Shown here one piece after another: positions 52,009 to 62,074 of a stretch of 64,000 nucleotides of DNA. The number at the start of each line of letters is the position of its first letter. Within the stretch, counting starts at the first letter, position 1. The DNA is from Betaproteobacteria bacterium. Its GTDB lineage: Bacteria > Pseudomonadota > Gammaproteobacteria > Burkholderiales > Casimicrobiaceae. The notes beneath the pieces were generated by a model. It was not told the origin of the DNA and ran no database searches. It worked only from the letters and a program-made list of their open reading frames with translations. Where the stretch lies: positions 248,001 to 312,000 of the forward strand of contig JAAFIS010000001.1 of NCBI GenBank assembly GCA_013298695.1, given 5' to 3'. The position numbers were made by a program, and so were the translations under genes.

Positions 52009-52117
52009 AAATAGCACATGAAAAGCGGTACTAAAGTGGTCGTTTTTCAGGCCATAAAAAGACGCGAAAATGCCCAACTAGCAAGACGCTAACTCATTGA
52101 TTACAAAGAAAAAAGGC

Positions 52118-52144
52118 AAAAAAAAGCCGGGGTTTTGCCCCGGC
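52118..52144 (-). terminator. Rho-independent terminator of the candidate small RNA
   Basis: GCCGGGG and CCCCGGC pair with a five-base loop; on the minus strand eight T follow. No T-run on the plus side, so direction is clear. Nearest plus gene (rlmD) ends 140 bp away. Confidence 0.8.
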
Positions 52145-52229
52145 CTCAAATTGCTGTTGATTCTAACTAAAGTCACCGCAAGACCTAGTGCGGCCAAGGT
52201 ACCTCGAACACCTTAAGTCTTGTATTGAC
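52118..52229 (-). ncRNA. Candidate small RNA beside nasT
   Basis: On the minus strand a TATAAT box (52236-52241) is followed by about 112 nt without a convincing reading frame, ending at a strong terminator (52118-52144). Predicted folds by eye: GTCA...TGAC closing two hairpins, AAGGT-GTTCGAGGT-ACCTT and CCGCA-CTAGGTCT-TGCGG, then an unpaired stretch TTTAGTTAGAATCAACAGC before the terminator. The -35 region (TTTTTC at 17-bp spacing) is weak. No gene on this strand ends nearby, so the terminator needs a transcript of its own. I do not recognise the RNA family. Confidence 0.45.
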
Positions 52230-52235
52230 GAAATG

Positions 52236-52241
52236 ATTATA
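52236..52241 (-). promoter_or_regulatory. -10 box (TATAAT) for the candidate small RNA
   Basis: Perfect TATAAT on the minus strand, about 7 bp upstream of the proposed RNA start at 52229. The -35 hexamer at 17 bp is TTTTTC, far from TTGACA, so an activator may be needed. Confidence 0.45.
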
Positions 52242-52396
52242 GCCACAGGTTTTTGCTCGAAAAACGCTCTACGCTCAGGCGCATAGGTAGGTTTTCCACC
52301 TGTTGCGAGACGGTCACAGCAGAGTCGTTGAATTGCGACACAAAAAATAGAAAATACGCTGTAGCCCCTATGTAATTGAGGCTTATTTCGATTTTA

Positions 52397-53107
52397 ATGG
52401 TATATCGAAAACAAAAATATATACCTCGATACCCAGTTAAAAAGGCGTCTACAGTAGATACCCAAGATCTACTGGATGAGGATCGCCGCTGCGCACGGGT
52501 TTTGCATACGCGAAGCATCGATATTGACTTCCCCATTTGTTTGCGCGTCCTTCTGCTCCACGAAACCCAACACAATGTCGCCGAACTCGAAGAGGTGCTT
52601 TCGAGAACAGGTGACACTGTGCGCTCGATCCGCGCAAACGCAATCACTATGGCTGCTGAGATCGACGCCTGGCCGGCCGACGTGTTGCTCATTGCTGCAG
52701 ACGATCCAACCCGGGACATGATTGAACAAATTTGCGTCGCGTCGAGTGGTCGCGAGCGCGCAATAGTGATGTTTACCGAAGCGAACGACGCCGCCACGAT
52801 GCGCACGCTAGTAAAAGCGGGCGTTTCGGCCTACGTGGTCGCAGGCTGTTCGCCCGAGCGACTACGCCCTGTCATGGATGTTGCCGTAGAGCGTTTTGCT
52901 CATGAGCAAACGCAATTTGCAGAACTGCGCGCGGCGCAACAGCGTGAGGCAGACGCGCGCCAGATTGCTCGTGCGAAATCGCTCTTGCAGCGTCGCGGAC
53001 TGACTGAGGCCGAGGCGCATGCGACGTTGCGCACGCAAGCCATGCGTGAGCGACGCACAATCGCTGAGACAGCGAGTGCAATTCTTGGTGCAGATTCAGG
53101 TGTGTAG
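52397..53107 (+). CDS. nasT: NasT-like ANTAR antitermination regulator
   Basis: 236 aa from the only upstream ATG; TTG codons at 52502 or 52541 would give 201 or 188 aa and fit the family length better, so the start is uncertain. Pseudo-receiver domain LRVLLLHETQHNVAELEEVLSRTGD ... VLLIAADDPTRDMIEQIC ... AIVMFTEANDAATMRTLVKAGVSAYVV; the usual phosphoacceptor Asp is replaced (LLIAAD). C-terminal ANTAR domain EADARQIARAKSLLQRRGLTEAEAHATLRTQAMRERRTIAETASAIL. It would bind the leader RNA at 53199-53294 and allow read-through into the nitrate genes. A palindrome CAGTAGAT-ACCCAAG-ATCTACTG (52452-52474) falls in the doubtful N-terminal part. No NasS partner gene is adjacent. Confidence 0.8.
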   Translation: MVYRKQKYIPRYPVKKASTVDTQDLLDEDRRCARVLHTRSIDIDFPICLRVLLLHETQHNVAELEEVLSRTGDTVRSIRANAITMAAEIDAWPADVLLIAADDPTRDMIEQICVASSGRERAIVMFTEANDAATMRTLVKAGVSAYVVAGCSPERLRPVMDVAVERFAHEQTQFAELRAAQQREADARQIARAKSLLQRRGLTEAEAHATLRTQAMRERRTIAETASAILGADSGV

Positions 53108-53171
53108 CGCGCTTTACGGTCTGAATTGGTGCATCGCAGCACGCTCAACGCTTCCGGAGTCAAAAAACAGC

Positions 53172-53188
53172 TTGGCATGAATTTCGCA
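53172..53188 (+). promoter_or_regulatory. Sigma-54 (-24/-12) promoter of the nitrate operon
   Basis: TTGGCATGAATTTCGCA: GG (53174-53175), ten bases, then GC (53186-53187), close to the consensus TTGGCACG-N4-TTGCA. Transcription would start near 53199, exactly at the first ANTAR hairpin. A GGTGCA half-site (53128-53133) lies about 45 bp upstream and could be part of an NtrC site. This predicts expression under nitrogen limitation. Confidence 0.65.
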
Positions 53189-53198
53189 ACAGGGGCTT

Positions 53199-53294
53199 GT
53201 CTGTATCAACGGCGATGCGGACGATGTCTCTCTAATTTGGTTCACAGTGTTTGAGCAAAGAGGCTCCGGTCGTCAGACCGTGAGCCTTTTTTTT
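53199..53294 (+). promoter_or_regulatory. ANTAR-target leader RNA with attenuator
   Basis: First hairpin: GTCTGTATC (53199-53207), loop AACGGC, GATGCGGAC (53214-53222); nine pairs with a hexaloop having A1 and G4, the ANTAR recognition signature. Second hairpin candidates: GAGC-AAAGAG-GCTC (53253-53266; loop A1/G4), which uses the 5' strand of the terminator and so excludes it, or TTTGGTTCA-CAGTGTT-TGAGCAAA (53236-53259). The terminator follows at 53261-53294. This matches NasR/NasT-type antitermination leaders upstream of nitrate assimilation genes. Confidence 0.7.
53261..53294 (+). terminator. Attenuator terminator before nrtA
   Basis: AGGCTC-CGGTC-GTCA-GACCG-T-GAGCCT followed by eight T, ending 20 bp before the nrtA ATG. 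Because it stands inside the leader, it must be bypassed for the operon to be expressed; NasT is the likely antiterminator. Confidence 0.85.
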
Positions 53295-53314
53295 ATTTCC
53301 TTGGAGCACTCAGT

Positions 53315-54649
53315 ATGTCGGAACGCGATCTCACGTCACCTCACTCAACCTCTACGCAAGCCGACGCGGCGACGCCTAGCGCACCGTCGGTAGTCGTTGC
53401 GAATTCGCCAGCATCGCTTGCCAAGCGATCCACGCTCAAAGCGGCCAGCGCTGCCGGGATCATGACTTTGGTTTCGCCGCTGGTGCGTCAAGGTGCCTGG
53501 GCGCAGGGCTCCGACGCGCCCGAGAAAAAGGAGGTGAAGGTTGGCTTTATTCCGCTTACTGACTGCGCAAGCGTGGTCATGGCATCGGTGCTCAAGCTCG
53601 ACGAAAAGTACGGGATCAAGATTATCCCAACGAAAGAGGCCAGCTGGGCATCAGTTCGCGACAAACTGGTCAACGGCGAGCTCGATGCTGCACACGTGTT
53701 GTATGGCCTGATTTACGGCGTGCAACTGGGCATCGGTGGCCCCAAGAAAGATATGGCGGTATTGATGACGCTTAATCAAAACGGCCAGGGCATCACGCTC
53801 TCCAATCAGTTGAAAGACAAAGGCGTCACCAATGGCGAGCAGCTCGCTGCGCTTATGAAAAAGGAAAAGCGCGAATACACCTTTGCGCAGACTTTCCCGA
53901 CGGGCACGCACGCCATGTGGCTCTATTACTGGCTCGCGGCTAACGGCATCAACCCAATGACGGACGCGAAGGTCATCACCGTACCACCGCCGCAAATGGT
54001 CGCCAACATGCGCGTGGGCAACATGGACGGTTACTGCGTAGGTGAACCGTGGAACGCGCGCGCGGTGTTCGACAAAATTGGATTTTCTGCTGCGACAACG
54101 CAAGACATATGGACGGGGCATCCGGAAAAGGTGCTCGGCACGTCGGATGAGTGGGTCAAGAAGAACCCGAACACGGCGCGTGCCTTAGTTGCCGCGATTC
54201 TTGAGGCTTCGCGGTTCATCGATCAAGAAGTTGACAAGAAAAAAACCGCAACGATTCTTGCTGACAAAGCTTACGTGAATACTGCGATGGAAGTGATTGA
54301 AGATCGCTGGGAAGGCAAATACGACAACGGCATCGGCAAGAAATGGACGGACGCTAACGCGATGAAATTCCATCTCGACGGCGCGGTGAATTTCCCGTAT
54401 CTCTCCGACGGCATGTGGTTCTTAACGCAACACAAACGTTGGGGCTTGCTGAAAGAGCATCCTGATTACCTGAGCGTTGCAAAATCGATCAACAAAATCG
54501 ATTTGTACAAGCAGGCAGCTGCAGCGGCGAAGGTGACTGTGCCAAAAGGCGAGATGCGCACGAGCAAATTGATCGACGGCATCACTTGGGACGGCAGCAA
54601 TCCGCGCGCCTATGCTGATGCGTTCAAGATCAAAGGCGGAGTCGCGTAA
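53315..54649 (+). CDS. nrtA: Nitrate ABC transporter substrate-binding protein
   Basis: 444 aa from the ATG at 53315 with TTGGAG upstream. A long N-terminal region with a Tat-like signal (AKRSTLKAASAAGIMTLVSPLVRQGAWA, about 29-56) precedes the CmpA/NrtA-type domain: VKVGFIPLTDCASVVMASVLKLDEKYGIKI, FPTGTHAMWLYYWLAANGINP, DGYCVGEPWNARAVFDKIGF. Captures nitrate or nitrite in the periplasm for NrtBD. The stop overlaps the nrtB start. Confidence 0.92.
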   Translation: MSERDLTSPHSTSTQADAATPSAPSVVVANSPASLAKRSTLKAASAAGIMTLVSPLVRQGAWAQGSDAPEKKEVKVGFIPLTDCASVVMASVLKLDEKYGIKIIPTKEASWASVRDKLVNGELDAAHVLYGLIYGVQLGIGGPKKDMAVLMTLNQNGQGITLSNQLKDKGVTNGEQLAALMKKEKREYTFAQTFPTGTHAMWLYYWLAANGINPMTDAKVITVPPPQMVANMRVGNMDGYCVGEPWNARAVFDKIGFSAATTQDIWTGHPEKVLGTSDEWVKKNPNTARALVAAILEASRFIDQEVDKKKTATILADKAYVNTAMEVIEDRWEGKYDNGIGKKWTDANAMKFHLDGAVNFPYLSDGMWFLTQHKRWGLLKEHPDYLSVAKSINKIDLYKQAAAAAKVTVPKGEMRTSKLIDGITWDGSNPRAYADAFKIKGGVA

Positions 54650-55602
54650 TGACCAACGCGATCACGATGCCGCTCGCGGTAGGTGCAAGCCTGCAGGAGA
54701 AGGAAACGAAACGATCAGCGCACGAGATGTTTGTAGAAACTGCAAAGAAAACGTCGGAAGACACCGCCGAATCTCGCGCTGCCCGAGAAGCCGAACTAGC
54801 GATGAAAATACGTCGGCGCCGCGAGCAGATCACGGGACTTGTACAAACCACCGTACCCGCATTTCTTGGTTTTGCGCTGTTCATTCTTGCGTGGCAATTT
54901 CTATCGCAAATAAATTCGCAAATACCAAGTCCGGCAAAAGTGTGGATGGCTGCGGTGAAATTGTTCAGCGATCCCTTCTACAGCAAAGGGCCGAATGATC
55001 AAGGCATCGGCTGGAACATTTTGTCGTCGCTTAAGCGCGTGGGCATTGGTTTCGGCCTCGCTGCGCTCGTTGGTATTCCGCTGGGATTCATGATTGGGCG
55101 CTTCACGTTTCTAGATCGCATGACTGCACCAATCATTGCGATTCTGCGCCCGGTGTCGCCGCTCGCATGGTTGCCGATTGGGCTACTCGTTTTCAAAGCG
55201 GCTAATCCCGCTGCGATTTGGGTGATTTTTATTTGCTCAATTTGGCCAATGATTATTAACACGGCCGTCGGTGTGCAGCGTATTCCGCAAGATTACTTAA
55301 ACGTTGCGCGGGTACTTAATCTATCTGAATGGAAAGTGTTCACCAAGATTTTGTTTCCCGCCGTGCTGCCGTACATGCTCACGGGTGTAAAGCTCTCTAT
55401 TGGCGTAGCTTGGCTTGTGATCGTTGCAGCGGAGATGTTGACCGGTGGCGTTGGAATCGGATTCTGGTTGTGGGACGAGTGGAACAACTTGGTTGTTGAG
55501 CACATCATTGTTGCAATCTTCGTGATCGGTATTGTGGGACTGTTGCTTGAGCAATTGCTCACGCGCATCGCTGCACGTTTCGAATTCAACGAAAAAGCAT
55601 AG
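54649..55602 (+). CDS. nrtB: Nitrate ABC transporter permease
   Basis: 317 aa. About six helices after a charged 60-residue N-terminus; EAA-type loop near LNVARVLNLSEWKVFTKILFPAVLPYMLTGVKLSIGVAW contacts the ATPase. Matches NrtB/SsuC/TauC-type permeases. Starts within the nrtA stop (TAATG). Confidence 0.92.
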   Translation: MTNAITMPLAVGASLQEKETKRSAHEMFVETAKKTSEDTAESRAAREAELAMKIRRRREQITGLVQTTVPAFLGFALFILAWQFLSQINSQIPSPAKVWMAAVKLFSDPFYSKGPNDQGIGWNILSSLKRVGIGFGLAALVGIPLGFMIGRFTFLDRMTAPIIAILRPVSPLAWLPIGLLVFKAANPAAIWVIFICSIWPMIINTAVGVQRIPQDYLNVARVLNLSEWKVFTKILFPAVLPYMLTGVKLSIGVAWLVIVAAEMLTGGVGIGFWLWDEWNNLVVEHIIVAIFVIGIVGLLLEQLLTRIAARFEFNEKA

Positions 55603-55615
55603 ATTGGAGCGCACT

Positions 55616-56410
55616 ATGAACCACAGTTTTCATCTGGTTGTTGACAACGTCGAAAAGCGGTTCGACACCAAGCAAGGCGAGTTCCTCGCGATTCGTGATG
55701 TGAATCTTCGCGTCAATCGTGGCGAGTTTGTGGCATTGATTGGTCATTCCGGCTGCGGCAAATCCACGCTACTGAATCTACTCGCAGGACTGTCGACACC
55801 GACTGGCGGCGTGTTGGTATGCGCAGGGCGCGAGGTTAAAGGTCCAGGTCCTGATCGCGGTGTCGTATTTCAAAACCATTCGCTGTTGCCGTGGCTCACT
55901 TGCTTCCAAAACGTTCATCTCGCGGTCGAACGCGTGTTCGCAGGCAAGGAATCAAAGGCTCAACTTAAAGAGCGCACCGAAAACGCATTGAAGCTCGTCG
56001 GACTTTCGCACGCAATTCATAAGCATCCGAATGAGATTTCGGGCGGCATGAAACAGCGGGTCGGTATCGCCCGAGCGCTCGCAATCGAGCCCGCAGTGCT
56101 CTTGCTCGACGAGCCGTTCGGTGCGCTGGATGCGCTCACTCGTGCGCATTTGCAAGATGAGCTGCTGCGAATAGTTGCGGAAACGAAATCGACGGTGGTA
56201 ATGGTCACCCACGACGTGGATGAGGCGGTGCTGCTGTCTGATCGGATTGTCATGATGACGAATGGCCCAGCCGCGACGATTGGCGAAATTCTCGAAGTTA
56301 AGCTCGCGCGTCCGCGTGATCGCTTGGCGCTTGCGGAAGACGTGGAGTATCACCACTACCGCAAAGCCGTCGTTGAATTTCTCTACAGCAAACATAAAAA
56401 AGCTGCGTGA
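55616..56410 (+). CDS. nrtD: Nitrate ABC transporter ATP-binding protein
   Basis: 264 aa from the ATG at 55616 (TTGGAG upstream). Walker A GHSGCGKST, Q-loop FQNHSLLPWLT, signature ISGGMKQRVGIARAL, Walker B VLLLDEPFGALD, H-loop VTHDVDEAV. The NrtD type, without the extra NrtA-like domain of NrtC. 30 bp before nirB. Confidence 0.92.
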   Translation: MNHSFHLVVDNVEKRFDTKQGEFLAIRDVNLRVNRGEFVALIGHSGCGKSTLLNLLAGLSTPTGGVLVCAGREVKGPGPDRGVVFQNHSLLPWLTCFQNVHLAVERVFAGKESKAQLKERTENALKLVGLSHAIHKHPNEISGGMKQRVGIARALAIEPAVLLLDEPFGALDALTRAHLQDELLRIVAETKSTVVMVTHDVDEAVLLSDRIVMMTNGPAATIGEILEVKLARPRDRLALAEDVEYHHYRKAVVEFLYSKHKKAA

Positions 56411-56439
56411 GCGAATCTCGTATCGCCTGGGGAGAAACA

Positions 56440-58914
56440 ATGAACAAACCAAAGCTTGCAGTCATCGGCAACGGCATGGCCGGCATCCGCGCCATCGAAG
56501 AATTGCTCAAGATTGCGCCTGATAAATACGATATCACTGTGTTTGGCGCAGAGCCGCATCCGAACTACAACCGCATTCTGCTCTCGCCGGTGCTCGCAGG
56601 TGAACAAACGATGCAAGACATCGTGCTGAACGACTGGGATTGGTATCGCGATAACGGCATCAAGCTGGTAACAAACAAAAAAATCGTCAACATTCATCGC
56701 ACGAAGCGCGAGCTGACTGCCGAGAGCGGTGAAACCTACTCGTATGATCGTTTGCTGATCGCGACTGGCTCGAATCCGTTCATTTTGCCGATTCCGGGCG
56801 CGAATTTGCCGGGAGTAATTTCATATCGCGACATCGCTGATACCGAGGCAATGATTGATGCGGCGAAGCACCACAAGAAAGCGGTGGTCATCGGCGGTGG
56901 CTTGCTCGGACTTGAAGCAGCGAACGGCCTAAAACTTCGCGGCATGGACGTGACAGTTGTTCACGTGATGCCGTGGCTCATGGAGCGGCAACTCGATGAA
57001 CGCGCAGGCAAATTATTGCAAGCGTCTCTTGAAGCAAAAGGCATCGCATTCAAGATTCAAGCGAACACCGAAGCGCTAATCGCAGGCGAATCCGGTCGTG
57101 TAGCCGCATTGAAATTCAAATCGGGTGAACAAATTCCAGCCGAGCTTGTGGTGATGGCAGTCGGCATTCGCCCGAATGCAGCTCTTGCAGAAAGATCGGG
57201 TATCGCGGTGAGCGCGCGGCCCGGCGGTATCATCGTGAACGATACGATGCAAACGCTTACCGATCCTCGCATTTACGCGGTCGGCGAATGTGTAAATCAC
57301 CGTGGCATCGCCTACGGCTTGGTTGCGCCGCTGTTCGAAATGGCGAAGGTGTGCGCAAATCATCTCGCAGAGTACGGTATCGGCCGCTACGTCGGTTCGG
57401 TCACATCCACAAAACTCAAAGTGACTGGCGTTGATCTCTTCAGCGCAGGCAACTTTCAGGGCGACGAGGCCACTGAAGATATCGTTCTTTCAGACCCGAT
57501 TGGCGGTGTCTACAAACGCTTGGTCATCAAAGACGATAAGCTCGTCGGCGCGTGTTTGTACGGCGACACCGTGGACGGAAGCTGGTACTTTAAGTTACTG
57601 CGCGAAGGAAAAAACATCGCGGAAATTCGCGATCAATTGATGTTTGGCGAATCTAACATTGGCGACGTTGGACACGAGGGCAACACCCGCGCCGCCGCAA
57701 TGAAAGACAGCGACGAAGTTTGTGGTTGTAACGGCGTGTGCAAAGGCGCGATCACAAAAGCGATTAAAGAAAAGGGCTTGTTCACGCTCGACGAAGTGCG
57801 TAAACACACAAAAGCGTCTTCATCGTGCGGTTCCTGTACGGGGTTAGTCGAGCAAATCTTGATGTTCACTGCGGGTGGCGATTACAGCGCAACGCCGAAG
57901 ATGAAGCCGATGTGTGGCTGCACGGATCACACGCATCAAGACGCGCGCGATGCGATCAAAGCAAGCAAGTTGCTTTCGGTCCCCGATGTCATGAAGTTTC
58001 TCGATTGGCGCACGCCGAATGGTTGTGCAACTTGCCGTCCCGCGCTCAACTACTACTTACTGTCCACCTGGCCGAAGGAATGCATTGATGATCCGCAATC
58101 GCGCTTTATCAACGAACGCGCGCACGCAAACATTCAAAAAGACGGCACCTTCAGCGTGATCCCACGGATGTGGGGCGGCGAAACAACTGCTGATGAACTG
58201 CGCAGAATTGCCAACGCAGTCGACAAATACAAGATTCCCACCGTGAAAGTCACGGGTGGACAACGTATCGATTTGCTCGGTGTGAAAAAGGAAGATCTGC
58301 CGAATGTGTGGAAAGACATTGGTATGCCCTCGGGTCACGCCTATGCAAAGGCGCTACGCACGGTGAAAACTTGCGTCGGCTCCGAATGGTGTCGTTTCGG
58401 TACACAAGATTCCACGCAAATGGGAAAAGACTTGGAGCAAGCGATGTGGCGGATGTATGCGCCGCACAAAGTGAAGTTTGCGGTGAGCGGCTGCCCGCGC
58501 AATTGTGCGGAGGCTGGCATCAAAGATGTCGGAGTGATCGGCGTCGATTCCGGGTGGGAGCTCTACGTTGCGGGCAACGGCGGCATCAAAACCGAAGTCG
58601 CGCAGTTTTTTGTGAAAGTGAAAACCTCTGAAGAAGTGCTTGAATACACCGGTGCGTTTATGCAGCTCTATCGCGAAGAGGGTTGGTATTTAGAACGCAC
58701 GGTGCATTATGTGTCGCGTGTCGGTCTCGATTATGTGAAAAAGCGCGTGCTTGAAGACGCAGAGAACCGCAAAGCGCTGTGGGAGCGCTTGCAGTTTTCG
58801 CTCGATGGTGAACCCGATCCGTGGTTTGAGTTTGATAAAGCGCGTGTTGATACGAGGCAATTCATTCCGATCAAGCCTTCCGCGGCGATGGCTGATGCCG
58901 TGCCCGCAGAATAG
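56440..58914 (+). CDS. nirB: Assimilatory nitrite reductase, large subunit
   Basis: 824 aa from the ATG at 56440, chosen over a GTG at 56407 because GGGGAGAA precedes it and KLAVIGNGMAGIRAIEELL follows. Domains in order: FAD/NAD(P)H-binding pyridine-nucleotide oxidoreductase (about 1-390), two BFD-like [2Fe-2S] segments (CGCNGVCKGAI...CGSCTGLV and CGCTDHT...CATCRPALNYY), and the siroheme/[4Fe-4S] domain with TCVGSEWCRFG and SGCPRNCAEAG near residues 640-690. Reduces nitrite to ammonium with NADH and siroheme. Confidence 0.95.
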   Translation: MNKPKLAVIGNGMAGIRAIEELLKIAPDKYDITVFGAEPHPNYNRILLSPVLAGEQTMQDIVLNDWDWYRDNGIKLVTNKKIVNIHRTKRELTAESGETYSYDRLLIATGSNPFILPIPGANLPGVISYRDIADTEAMIDAAKHHKKAVVIGGGLLGLEAANGLKLRGMDVTVVHVMPWLMERQLDERAGKLLQASLEAKGIAFKIQANTEALIAGESGRVAALKFKSGEQIPAELVVMAVGIRPNAALAERSGIAVSARPGGIIVNDTMQTLTDPRIYAVGECVNHRGIAYGLVAPLFEMAKVCANHLAEYGIGRYVGSVTSTKLKVTGVDLFSAGNFQGDEATEDIVLSDPIGGVYKRLVIKDDKLVGACLYGDTVDGSWYFKLLREGKNIAEIRDQLMFGESNIGDVGHEGNTRAAAMKDSDEVCGCNGVCKGAITKAIKEKGLFTLDEVRKHTKASSSCGSCTGLVEQILMFTAGGDYSATPKMKPMCGCTDHTHQDARDAIKASKLLSVPDVMKFLDWRTPNGCATCRPALNYYLLSTWPKECIDDPQSRFINERAHANIQKDGTFSVIPRMWGGETTADELRRIANAVDKYKIPTVKVTGGQRIDLLGVKKEDLPNVWKDIGMPSGHAYAKALRTVKTCVGSEWCRFGTQDSTQMGKDLEQAMWRMYAPHKVKFAVSGCPRNCAEAGIKDVGVIGVDSGWELYVAGNGGIKTEVAQFFVKVKTSEEVLEYTGAFMQLYREEGWYLERTVHYVSRVGLDYVKKRVLEDAENRKALWERLQFSLDGEPDPWFEFDKARVDTRQFIPIKPSAAMADAVPAE

Positions 58915-58919
58915 TCACG

Positions 58920-59279
58920 ATGCTTCTACAAACCCAGGCTACACCGATGAAGATTGAAACCCACATGAGTTGGCGATACGTTTGCAAACTAGAAGAACTA
59001 CCTGTTCTCGGCGCGCGCGTGGTTGAACGCAGCGAAGACGAAGGCGGCAACGTCGCGGTGTTTCGCAACGACAAAGACGTGGTGTTCGCGCTTCTCGATA
59101 AATGCCCGCACAAAGGTGGGCCGCTTTCACAAGGCATTGTGTTCGGTGAGCGCGTGGCGTGTCCTTTGCACAATTGGACGATTGAACTTAAGAGCGGCGA
59201 TGCTGTTGCACCGGACGTCGGTTGCACGAGGCGCTTTTCCGTGAAAGTTGACAACGGTGATGTGTTCGTTGAACTGTAA
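58920..59279 (+). CDS. nirD: Nitrite reductase small subunit NirD
   Basis: 119 aa with Rieske-type motifs CPHKGGPLSQG and CPLHNWTIEL (His and Cys present in both). The body starts at MSWRYVCKLEELPVLGARVV; in-frame ATGs at 58920, 58947 and 58965 leave the exact start open, and the last one removes 15 variable residues. Partner of NirB. Confidence 0.9.
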   Translation: MLLQTQATPMKIETHMSWRYVCKLEELPVLGARVVERSEDEGGNVAVFRNDKDVVFALLDKCPHKGGPLSQGIVFGERVACPLHNWTIELKSGDAVAPDVGCTRRFSVKVDNGDVFVEL

Positions 59280-59305: not shown

Positions 59306-62074
59306 ATGACCGACGTTAAAACAACCTGCCCGTATTGCGGCGTTGGCTGCGGTGTCATCGCAACGACAGATGGAAAAAACATTACCGCTGTGCGCGGCGA
59401 CCTGGATCATCCCGCGAACTTCGGTCGTCTCTGTACGAAGGGCAGCACACTGCACCTCACGACGACACCGTATGGTCGCGCGTTGTACCCAGAGATTCGC
59501 CGTGATCGCAATGAGCGACGCAAGCGTACGAGTTGGGATGAGACGCTCGACTATCTCGTTGAAAAATTTGTAACAACGATTTCGGAGCACGGCCCCGATA
59601 GCGTCGGCTTCTACATTTCGGGTCAACTCCTCACTGAAGACTATTACGTTTTCAACAAGCTCGCCAAGGGGTTGATTGGCACTAATAACGTCGATACCAA
59701 TTCACGGCTTTGCATGTCGTCAGCTGTCACGGGTTACAAATCAACGCTTGGCGCAGACGCACCGCCCGCCTGCTACGACGATTTGAATCATGCCGAGCTC
59801 ATCGTCATTGCAGGCAGCAATATGGCGTGGGCGCACCCGATTTTGTATCGACGACTTGAAGATGCGAAGGCAAAAAATCCGTCGCTTAAAGTTGTGTGCA
59901 TTGATCCGCGTCGCACCGAAACCGCGCGCGGCGCAGATTTACATCTGCCGATTTTGCCCGGCACGGACGTCGCACTCTTCAATGCGATCATGCATTGGCT
60001 TATTTGGGAAGACGTCGTCGCGAGCGACTACATCGCTGCGCACACCGAAGGATTCGCCGAGCTTCGCACGAGCGTTCGCGAATGCACGCCTGCCTGGGCG
60101 GCGCGTGTATGTGGCGTGCACGAAGAAGCGATTGTGCAGCTCGCGCAATGGTGGCGCGACTCAAAGGCGACACTCTCGCTGTATTGCCAAGGCTTGAATC
60201 AATCAACGAGTGGCACTGATAAAAACGCGGCGCTCATCAACCTGCATCTTGCAACTGCGCAGATCGGAAAACACGGTGCCGGGCCGTTTTCGTTAACCGG
60301 ACAACCCAATGCAATGGGCGGTCGCGAAGTGGGTGGGCTCGCGAACTTGTTGCCGGGTCATCGCGATATTGTGAACTCGGAACATCGCGCTGAAGTTGAA
60401 AAGCTTTGGGGCGTGCCTGCGGGTCGCATTCCCGCAGTGCCTGGGAAAACCGCGGTTGAAATGTTCGATGCGGCCAAGCGTGGGGAGATCAAATTGCTTT
60501 GGATCGCCTGCACCAATCCCGCGCAATCGATGCCGAATCTTGCAAGCGTTGCGGAGGCGTTCGCAAACGCTGAATGCGTGATCGTGCAGGAGGCTTACGC
60601 GACGACCGAGACTGCGAAGCTCGCCGATGTGTTGCTGCCTGCAAGTACCTGGGGCGAGAAGCATGGAACAGTCACCAATTCCGAGCGGCGCATTACGCGT
60701 GTGAAAAGAGTGTTGCCTCCGCCGGGTGAGGCGAAGCACGATTGGGAGATTGTGGTCGAGTTTGCGCGGCGGTTAGAGATGCGACTTGGTTCCCTCTCCA
60801 GCAACGCGATAGAGGGAGCCAATTTATTCCCCTACGACACCCCCGAATTCATCTTCAACGAACACCGCGAAACGACGCGCGGGCGAGACCTCGACATCAG
60901 CGGGATGAACTACGAAATGCTCGCCTCGCAAGGCCCGCAACAATGGCCAATGCGCGAAGGTGAATCAACAGGTAAAACGCGCCTCTACGAAGATGGCATC
61001 TTCCCAACGGTAAGCGGTAAAGCAACATTCAAAGTAACGCCGTACAAAGCGGTCGCCGACGCGGTCGACGCACGCTTTCCGCTCGCGCTCACGACAGGTC
61101 GCATGCGTGATCAATGGCATGGTATGAGCCGCACGGGGCGCGTGCCGCAGCTCTACGGACACGAACCCGAGCCGATGCTTACGCTGAACACGAACGATGC
61201 CGCGCGCCGAGGATTCGTGCCGGGTGAAGTCGTGAAAGTCGCGTCACGCCGTGGCGAATTGTTGATTCGCGTCGGATTGAGCGATGACGTTAGATCCGGT
61301 CAGTGTTATGTGCCGATGCATTGGGGCAAAGCTTCGCTCGCAAGCGCTGGCTCGCATGGCGTGAATGCGTTAACCAATGGCGCATTTGATGCCTCCTCTA
61401 AACAACCGGAGTTGAAACACGCGGCCGTGCGCGTCGAGCGTGCGCAGTTGCCGTGGCAATTGGTGGCGTTCGCGTACACATCGGATCGTGATCCGGTCGC
61501 TTTGTGTGATGACTTGCGCGAAGTCGCGGCGCAGATTCAAGGTGATTGTTTCGCAAGCACCACGTTAATCGGAAATGAGCGTCCTGGCGTCGTACTGCGT
61601 CTTGCTTGCGCAGAAGCGCCAAATCGCGAAACGCTGGAGCAGATTGATCGCGTGCTCGGCGTTACCGGTTTGTCATCGCTTGTCTACGACGATGCGCGGC
61701 GAAACATCTCACGTCGCGTTCGCGTGGAAGACGGGCGGCTAACGGGTGTGCGTCTTGCGGGCGATCTTGCTGCAGAAACGTGGATGCGCGATTTCTTTTT
61801 GTCGGGCGCATCGGTGGTTGAGCTCCGCCAACGATTGCTCGCAGGCAGCGCGACCGCGCCTGACGGCTTCAAAGCGCGCGGCAAGGTGGTGTGCAATTGC
61901 TTTAACGTGACCGAACGCGAGATCACAGAATTCTGCGCGGCGTCGAGCCGCGCCTCGATGAGCGCTTCGACGACGCTAGCCGCGCTGCAAGCTAAAAAAA
62001 AATGTGGCACAAATTGCGGATCGTGTTTGCCAGAGCTGCGCGGGCTAGTCGCCTCTGCCGCCAATGCAGCGTAA
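59306..62074 (+). CDS. nasA: Assimilatory nitrate reductase catalytic subunit
   Basis: 922 aa Mo-bisMGD oxidoreductase. N-terminal [4Fe-4S] motif CPYCGVGCGV...RLCTKGSTL (about residues 8-50), NxxCMSSAVTGYK with the Mo-ligand Cys (SRLCMSSAV), molydopterin motifs GSNMAWAHPILYRRLE, QGLNQSTSGTDKNAALINLH and PNAMGGREVGGLANLLPGHR, and the molydopterin dinucleotide-binding domain from about 560. The last 60 residues are a BFD-like [2Fe-2S] domain (CNCFNVTEREI ... CGTNCGSCLPELR) typical of NasA/NarB with this extension. Reduces nitrate to nitrite. Confidence 0.95.
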   Translation: MTDVKTTCPYCGVGCGVIATTDGKNITAVRGDLDHPANFGRLCTKGSTLHLTTTPYGRALYPEIRRDRNERRKRTSWDETLDYLVEKFVTTISEHGPDSVGFYISGQLLTEDYYVFNKLAKGLIGTNNVDTNSRLCMSSAVTGYKSTLGADAPPACYDDLNHAELIVIAGSNMAWAHPILYRRLEDAKAKNPSLKVVCIDPRRTETARGADLHLPILPGTDVALFNAIMHWLIWEDVVASDYIAAHTEGFAELRTSVRECTPAWAARVCGVHEEAIVQLAQWWRDSKATLSLYCQGLNQSTSGTDKNAALINLHLATAQIGKHGAGPFSLTGQPNAMGGREVGGLANLLPGHRDIVNSEHRAEVEKLWGVPAGRIPAVPGKTAVEMFDAAKRGEIKLLWIACTNPAQSMPNLASVAEAFANAECVIVQEAYATTETAKLADVLLPASTWGEKHGTVTNSERRITRVKRVLPPPGEAKHDWEIVVEFARRLEMRLGSLSSNAIEGANLFPYDTPEFIFNEHRETTRGRDLDISGMNYEMLASQGPQQWPMREGESTGKTRLYEDGIFPTVSGKATFKVTPYKAVADAVDARFPLALTTGRMRDQWHGMSRTGRVPQLYGHEPEPMLTLNTNDAARRGFVPGEVVKVASRRGELLIRVGLSDDVRSGQCYVPMHWGKASLASAGSHGVNALTNGAFDASSKQPELKHAAVRVERAQLPWQLVAFAYTSDRDPVALCDDLREVAAQIQGDCFASTTLIGNERPGVVLRLACAEAPNRETLEQIDRVLGVTGLSSLVYDDARRNISRRVRVEDGRLTGVRLAGDLAAETWMRDFFLSGASVVELRQRLLAGSATAPDGFKARGKVVCNCFNVTEREITEFCAASSRASMSASTTLAALQAKKKCGTNCGSCLPELRGLVASAANAA

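Follow-up and report, generated by a model that had tools for sequence, protein, structure and literature searches.

What controls the nitrate genes that follow the short stretch between a nasT-like gene and nrtA in this Casimicrobiaceae genome? In the window, that is, the whole 64,000-nucleotide (64-kb) stretch of DNA that was analysed, the order from 5′ to 3′ is rlmD, the nasT-like gene, the control region, nrtA, nrtB, nrtC, nirB, nirD, and a molybdopterin oxidoreductase gene. The initial annotation had placed a sigma-54 promoter, an ANTAR hairpin, and an attenuator in a stack before this nitrate operon, and the stacked elements are confirmed in the sequence. It is very probable that the ~140 bases before nrtA are the control region of an nrtABC-nirBD-nitrate reductase operon and that this control has two steps, sigma-54 and NasT antitermination. 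The genes concerned are listed below.

52541 to 53107, + strand: nasT-like gene, receiver-like domain and C-terminal ANTAR domain (Pfam ANTAR, 35.1 bits; cut-off 27.3)
53315 to 54649, + strand: nrtA, nitrate-binding ABC protein (Pfam NMT1_2, 4e-104)
54649 to 55602, + strand: nrtB, nitrate ABC permease (TIGR01183, above cut-off)
55532 to 56410, + strand, with a putative start codon: nrtC, nitrate ABC ATPase (TIGR01184, above cut-off)
56407 to 58914, + strand: nirB, assimilatory nitrite reductase large subunit (TIGR02374, above cut-off)
58920 to 59279, + strand: nirD, nitrite reductase small subunit (TIGR02378, above cut-off)
59306 to 62074, + strand: molybdopterin oxidoreductase (Pfam domains; C-terminal BFD-type [2Fe-2S] domain)

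The last of these genes reaches none of the cut-offs that NCBIfam sets for NasC, NasA, and formate dehydrogenase; it is most likely the assimilatory nitrate reductase, a name taken from its context. The nasT-like ORF opens at 52376, and the part common to relatives starts near 52541, the putative start. The start codon of nrtA is the ATG at 53315, and the N-terminus of NrtA, judged by eye, has a Tat-like signal (KRSTLK). The elements of the control region are as follows.

53085 to 53092, + strand: NtrC-like half-site 1, TTGGTGCA, a motif match inside the 3′ end of nasT
53126 to 53133, + strand: NtrC-like half-site 2, TTGGTGCA, a motif match 41 bases after half-site 1
53173 to 53188, + strand: sigma-54 promoter element, TGGCATGAATTTCGCA, 10 of 12 consensus positions
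53199 to 53222, + strand: hairpin P1, 9 bp, hexaloop AACGGC with A1 and G4 (-11.2 kcal/mol, z -4.5)
53253 to 53266, + strand: hairpin P2 (antiterminator), GAGC-AAAGAG-GCTC, 4 bp, with A1 and G4 (-4.7 kcal/mol, z -0.2)
53257 to 53294, + strand: intrinsic terminator, stem 53257-53291, eight T (U tract) at 53287-53294 (-23.6 kcal/mol, z -7.2)

P1 had been correctly placed and described as a 9-bp hairpin with A1 and G4 in its hexaloop. It was also found, as claimed, that a second A1/G4 hairpin shares bases with the terminator: the loop and the 3′ arm of P2 sit inside the 5′ arm of the terminator, and the two pairings are thus mutually exclusive. The eight T of the terminator are followed by nrtA, as the initial annotation had it. 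Folding upheld a part of this picture. P1 and the terminator are much more stable than their shuffled counterparts, and the entire leader has a z score of -4.4, but the stability of P2, a stem of only 4 bp, is not significant by folding alone. A simple terminator scan of the window did not pick up the terminator, in my opinion because its stem carries a one-base bulge.

The sigma-54 element consists of GG at 53174-53175, ten bases, and GC at 53186-53187. The 16-base consensus has a single match in 64 kb, where 0.30 are expected, and 26 of 100 shuffles had at least one; taken by itself, the window match is within chance. If the GC is taken as -13/-12, the predicted start (+1) is 53199, the first base of P1, which agrees with the earlier prediction. 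The 5′ end of the transcript would thus lie at or near this position.

If these elements work as those of homologous systems do, nitrogen limitation would let NtrC activate sigma-54 RNA polymerase, which would start at or near 53199, and P1 would be the first structure of the transcript. In the default state, the RNA would fold into the strong terminator, and transcription would stop ~95 bases downstream of the start. When the NasT-like protein is active, its ANTAR domains would bind both P1 and P2 at their A1/G4 loops. The bound P2 would be stabilised, its 3′ arm would be kept from the terminator, and polymerase would read into nrtA. Both the binding of the NasT-like protein to P1 and P2 and the readthrough are proposed by analogy with those systems.

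Is the stack conserved in the window's own family? I read 16 nasT loci of this family. The stack was seen in 13 of them, from 12 genomes; the other three have masked bases (L018) or truncated sequences (L019 and L021). Reading the loops by eye, I found that A1 and G4 are kept in P1 of all 13 leaders and in P2 of 12, the exception being L010 (the same locus as L023), which has G at loop position 1. Thus, the claimed hexaloop bases are conserved in relatives. The P2 stem is GAGC/GCTC in the window family and GGAC/GTCC in many other betaproteobacterial leaders, and the terminator arms change along with the P2 stem between the two groups. By eye, a linker block GTCTCTC between P1 and P2 (53226-53233 in the window) was also seen in 11 of the 13 family leaders.

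Beyond the family, the best 80 of 594 relatives from an NrtA search were kept, nearly all betaproteobacterial by title. One of them (L072) was dropped, having no upstream DNA, and 80 leaders were analysed, namely 79 related loci and the window. A sigma-54 match of at least 10/12 lies within 420 bases in 76 of the 80 nrtA leaders, against 0.9% of shuffles, and the claimed GG-N10-GC promoter is thus a conserved element. A strict script required of P1 a stem of 5 bp or more and an A1/G4 hexaloop whose A1 falls between +7 and +21, and of P2 an A1/G4 hairpin whose bases pair in the terminator too. It found P1 in 51/80 leaders (0.44% of 1600 shuffles), an A1/G4 hairpin overlapping the terminator in 60/80 (0.13% of 1600 shuffles), and P1 together with P2 and the terminator in 42/80 (0.06% of 1600 shuffles). 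In two of these 42 (L027 and L075), the script mistook P1 for P2, and a separate P2 is visible by eye. It also overlooks imperfect leaders that look real by eye, for example L068, L078, L091, and L094. When a hexaloop of any sequence was allowed in the P1 slot, 51 of the 57 leaders with such a hairpin had A1 and G4. In a wider scan that allowed A1 at +3 to +36, P1 was found in 63/80 leaders, with A1 at +7 to +15 in 50 of these 63. Since P1 starts no more than about 10 bases from the predicted start in most leaders, starting on the hairpin is a family feature. Some leaderless loci keep a sigma-54 element near nrtA (e.g., L026). It is this conservation, not the window sequence by itself, that rules out chance.

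Some leaders have more than two hairpins. Three AANG hexaloop hairpins (at least 4 bp, at least three G-C pairs) were found in 9/80 leaders (L029, L032, L041, L047, L049, L058, L080, L082, and L098); the window has two, and in 20 rounds of shuffling none had more than one. A search of the open-access literature for three-hairpin ANTAR leaders found nothing on point, which is no proof of absence in print.

Covariation and covariance models were also applied. The set used consists of 18 leaders picked for clean alignment; they come from 40 that the script rated complete, and none belongs to the window's own family of 13. An earlier alignment of 24 sequences was set aside, the 3′ arm of P1 being misplaced in several rows. 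In the 18 leaders, the covariation score of P1 and the terminator is 0.423 against 0.205 for shuffled sequences, and P2 is paired in 100%. Changes on both sides were seen in 4 of 13 pairs, which does not stand out from shuffles (3.2); two of the pairs tested are frequently unformed. At gathering scores, Rfam gave no match in the 64-kb window or over the loci of ten relatives, and at a lax threshold the leader was still without any match. Within the 64 kb, the top hit of the 18-leader model was the window leader, with 18.3 bits and an E value of 0.0043, ahead of a match at 10.2 bits. In a search of the whole own genome, the leader was absent among the matches listed (150 of 1337 candidates scored), and two other places, at 20.5 and 18.1 bits, are not leader-like. 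The model is thus insensitive to the variant of the window family. The covariance test proposed for the ANTAR element thus had a mixed outcome. Since no second convincing leader was found in the own genome, no regulon is claimed. Over 274 genomes of the class, the same model matched 33 at E <= 0.001, the own genome being unmatched; 28 of 30 fetched loci (of 40 matches listed) adjoin a NasT, NrtA, NirB, or NasA homologue.

Does the nitrogen (Ntr) system act on this region? RpoN and NtrC are both encoded in the own genome. The NtrC consensus was used for a scan of enhancer sites. The best full NtrC-like site in the window has 4 mismatches, which is not above chance alone. An NtrC-like palindrome with no more than 3 mismatches lies upstream of the sigma-54 element in 41 of 87 leaders, where ~1.3 are expected in shuffles. 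In 7 of 9 family relatives examined, TGGTGC pairs lie 30-42 bases apart; no such pair was seen in 110 bases of three further family leaders (L010, L011, and L012, also given as L023, L024, and L025). By analogy with homologous systems, NtrC may bind at the nrtA control region. Acidovorax citrulli is presumably close to Paracidovorax (L049 and L069), whose loci have the leader. An ntrC deletion leaves A. citrulli unable to use nitrate (PMC10052978). A sigma-54 survey (PMC12316311) predicts that in Pseudomonadota this factor controls genes of nitrate ABC transport and of nitrite reductase; for ANTAR genes, it predicts such control chiefly in beta- and gammaproteobacteria. The initial annotation had proposed control by both nitrogen starvation and nitrate. 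The nitrogen half is favoured by the NtrC-like sites and by the RpoN and NtrC genes; for the nitrate half, no NasS was found, as described below.

The nasT-like gene encodes the sole ANTAR protein that a search of its own genome revealed. Its AlphaFold model (pLDDT 87.5) has a receiver-like domain, a long helix, and ANTAR helices, and the best-matching structures in the PDB are those of RNA-bound EutV and of AmiR (6ww6, 6wsh, 1qo0), which share the two-part fold of the model. Sequence profiles matched Rv1626, EutV, AmiR, and NasR, and the structure of NasR was matched over the ANTAR part only. Pfam shows ANTAR only, and no NIT domain was found. In an alignment, the presumed phospho-Asp position is Asp in many relatives and Ala in the window and in L022-L025.

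A small RNA gene probably lies between rlmD and nasT, on the minus strand at 52110-52241 of the window. The candidate has a TATAAT promoter, ~110 bases, and a strong terminator. Ten genomes of the family supply 11 further loci with a nearly invariant 3′ half (L007, L009-L011, L013-L017, L020, and L021); a search for the pattern gave no hit in L008, L012, L018, L019, and L025, nor in 76 other loci (L026-L101). In Rfam, it has sub-threshold similarity only, to anti-hemB RF02837 (20.6 bits; cut-off 49.5) and SorX. An inverted repeat, GTCGTTGAATTGCGAC, at 52324-52339, upstream of the small RNA promoter, is conserved in several relatives (e.g., L009, L011, L013, and L017) and is possibly an operator.

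Does the leader go together with NasT? Of the 80 loci, 63 have both the leader and a NasT match in the DNA that was fetched, 3 have NasT only, 6 the leader only, and 8 neither (Fisher p = 1.4e-5; leader meaning P1 or P2 of the strict script, tallied by hand, with little upstream DNA in L055 and L083). ANTAR genes were then sought genome-wide in 28 of the 80 genomes. Each of the six loci with a leader only proved to have an ANTAR gene at another place in its genome, and no such gene was found in five of the eight genomes with neither, some of these assemblies being small. One of these five ANTAR-less loci (L078) has a leader-like sequence by eye. The attenuator tends to come and go with an ANTAR gene. 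At L090 (2331-3644) and L092 (2244-3626), from Variovorax and Xenophilus, an ANTAR protein is encoded beside nrtA in a frame of 438-461 aa. It matches the window NasT weakly, mainly at its end, and is perhaps a NasR-type one-component sensor. The reading of the window region as a sigma-54 promoter with two ANTAR hairpins and an attenuator is thus supported by its conservation in nrtA leaders, by the adjoining ANTAR gene, and by the RpoN and NtrC genes.

How does nitrate reach NasT here? A NasS-like cytosolic protein was not found in the own genome. Besides two weaker NMT1_2 proteins, it has two strong ones, namely NrtA and a protein encoded at a different ABC locus; both of the strong ones have export-type N-termini by eye and 28-30% identity to Sinorhizobium NasS. 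A second NMT1-like ORF was absent from the fetched DNA of the 80 nrtA loci, some of whose contigs are short (e.g., L055, L072, and L083), and in 36/36 genomes searched (of 80), the best match to Sinorhizobium NasS is NrtA, at 30-34% identity. Since NasS from an alphaproteobacterium has little power to pick up such proteins in betaproteobacteria, the search was repeated with a signal-less protein encoded beside nasT in Caballeronia. The best match was again NrtA, at 45-50% in the 36 genomes and 46% in the own genome; beyond NrtA, one of the 36 gave a partial match at 49%, and matches at 29-33% turned up in eight others and in the own genome. NasS and NrtA are readily confused (PMC3795266). Since no NasS was found, the protein is called NasT-like here, and the system is not filed as NasS-NasT. 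Nitrate may be sensed by some other protein, or the leader may not respond to nitrate at all.

It is possible, if rather unlikely, that NasT without NasS is always active or answers another signal. The leader would then gate NasT level or nitrogen status, and nitrate specificity would be weak or absent. The results of both probes, the lack of a second NMT1-like ORF at the 80 loci, and the Ala at the phospho-Asp position of the window point this way. On the other hand, the leader and its attenuator are kept across many genera, suggesting a gate in use, and some other sensor is possible. Against this reading also stand the extra matches to the second probe and a gene, a true NasS or possibly nrtA, that was measured under the name nasS in A. 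citrulli, a relative of L049 and L069 (PMC10052978).

Could NrtA itself double as the nitrate sensor of NasT? A folded, unexported form would hold NasT when nitrate-free and release it when nitrate-bound, as NasS does elsewhere. This is distinctly improbable, and an exported sensor would report the wrong compartment; contact between NrtA and NasT is hypothetical. Still, NrtA comes closest to NasS among the proteins of the own genome and of the 36 others searched. Proteins exported by the Tat route fold in the cytosol, and a crude pattern search found a twin-arginine motif in 64/80 NrtA ORFs (strict) or 72/80 (relaxed). The forms were also tallied in the 33 class genomes with a leader, by sorting N-termini by eye (40 of 48 NMT1_2 matches read). 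Signal-less NasS-like proteins were seen in 1/10 genomes with a TIGR01183 permease (G386, which also has exported forms), and one more (G198) is unclear; the other eight have exported forms only, in favour of the idea. Among the 23 genomes without the permease, 8 have a signal-less form and probably 3 more do, in 9 all forms are exported, and 3 lack any match, which makes the contrast weak. As a separate proposal, that NasS is absent exactly where the ABC permease is present was borne out in part only.

A broader version, that betaproteobacteria with ABC nitrate uptake use NasS-less NasT antitermination with NrtA as the sensor, some lineages having a third A1/G4 hairpin between P1 and P2, is likewise doubtful and speculative. 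If true, the uptake protein and the gene switch would share one nitrate detector.

It is very improbable that the terminator just ends the nasT transcript, that the sigma-54 element is a chance match, and that nrtA is expressed independently of NasT: nasT does stop at 53107 on the same strand, and the sigma-54 match by itself is within chance, but order and spacing are conserved in related leaders, and the overlap of an A1/G4 hairpin with the terminator, in 60/80 leaders, is found in 0.1% of shuffles.

How, then, does two-step control by sigma-54 and NasT antitermination at this locus compare with known systems? That NasR and NasT proteins bind such hairpins and prevent termination, as the initial annotation stated, is published. 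NasR SELEX points to two A1/G4 hairpins, with nitrate-dependent readthrough (PMC7496416); Paracoccus denitrificans NasT binds the nasA leader (PMC3795266); and a mutation of hairpin HI in the nasA leader strongly lowers expression (PMC5424462). In Klebsiella, the nas genes are under Ntr control together with nitrate-responsive antitermination (PMC5424462). The window resembles the nasF/NasR system of K. oxytoca, which is Ntr-dependent (NtrA, that is sigma-54, NtrB, and NtrC), lies before nitrate assimilation genes, and has two A1/G4 hairpins and a terminator that is passed with nitrate-bound NasR (PMC5424462, PMC7496416). In contrast to NasR, which senses nitrate by its own NIT domain, the window protein is receiver-like, and no NIT domain was found in it.

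P. denitrificans NasT, like the window protein, combines an ANTAR domain with a CheY-like one and is encoded just upstream of a nitrate-gene leader (PMC3795266, PMC5424462). There, NasS holds NasT and releases it on binding nitrate or nitrite (PMC3795266); NasS is encoded beside NasT and senses nitrate, whereas no NasS was found here. The window also differs from the account given of P. denitrificans in that its transporter is nrtABC and its leader has a sigma-54 element. As for the other proteins of the same predicted fold, EutV works via phosphorylation (PMC3369931), whereas the window protein has Ala at the phospho-Asp position, and AmiR is paired with the sensor AmiC (PMC3795266), whereas no such partner was found for the window NasT.

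Another close description is that of Ramesh et al. (2012), whose leaders have two A1/G4 stem-loops, P2 over an intrinsic terminator, and nitrogen genes downstream (PMC3369931). The window has the same features, with two A1/G4 hexaloops, the overlap of P2 and the terminator, and an ANTAR protein encoded in the genome. Their scan reports nitrate and nitrite transporters, with Burkholderia among the genera, and the bioinformatics section of the paper names no Casimicrobiaceae element (PMC3369931). NasR/NasT antitermination leaders under Ntr control are already in print, and the window leader adds a further case; the NasS-less context and the receiver Ala are parts that a specialist might not expect. 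The comparison sharpens the question of how NasT learns of nitrate in betaproteobacteria that have nasT and the leader and, as searched, no NasS. Loci of cultivated strains, such as those of Cupriavidus necator (L029 and L032), are at hand for the questions of the sensor and the third hairpin. The window gives a compact, testable map of two-input control, and its element extends the known mechanism to a little-studied family.
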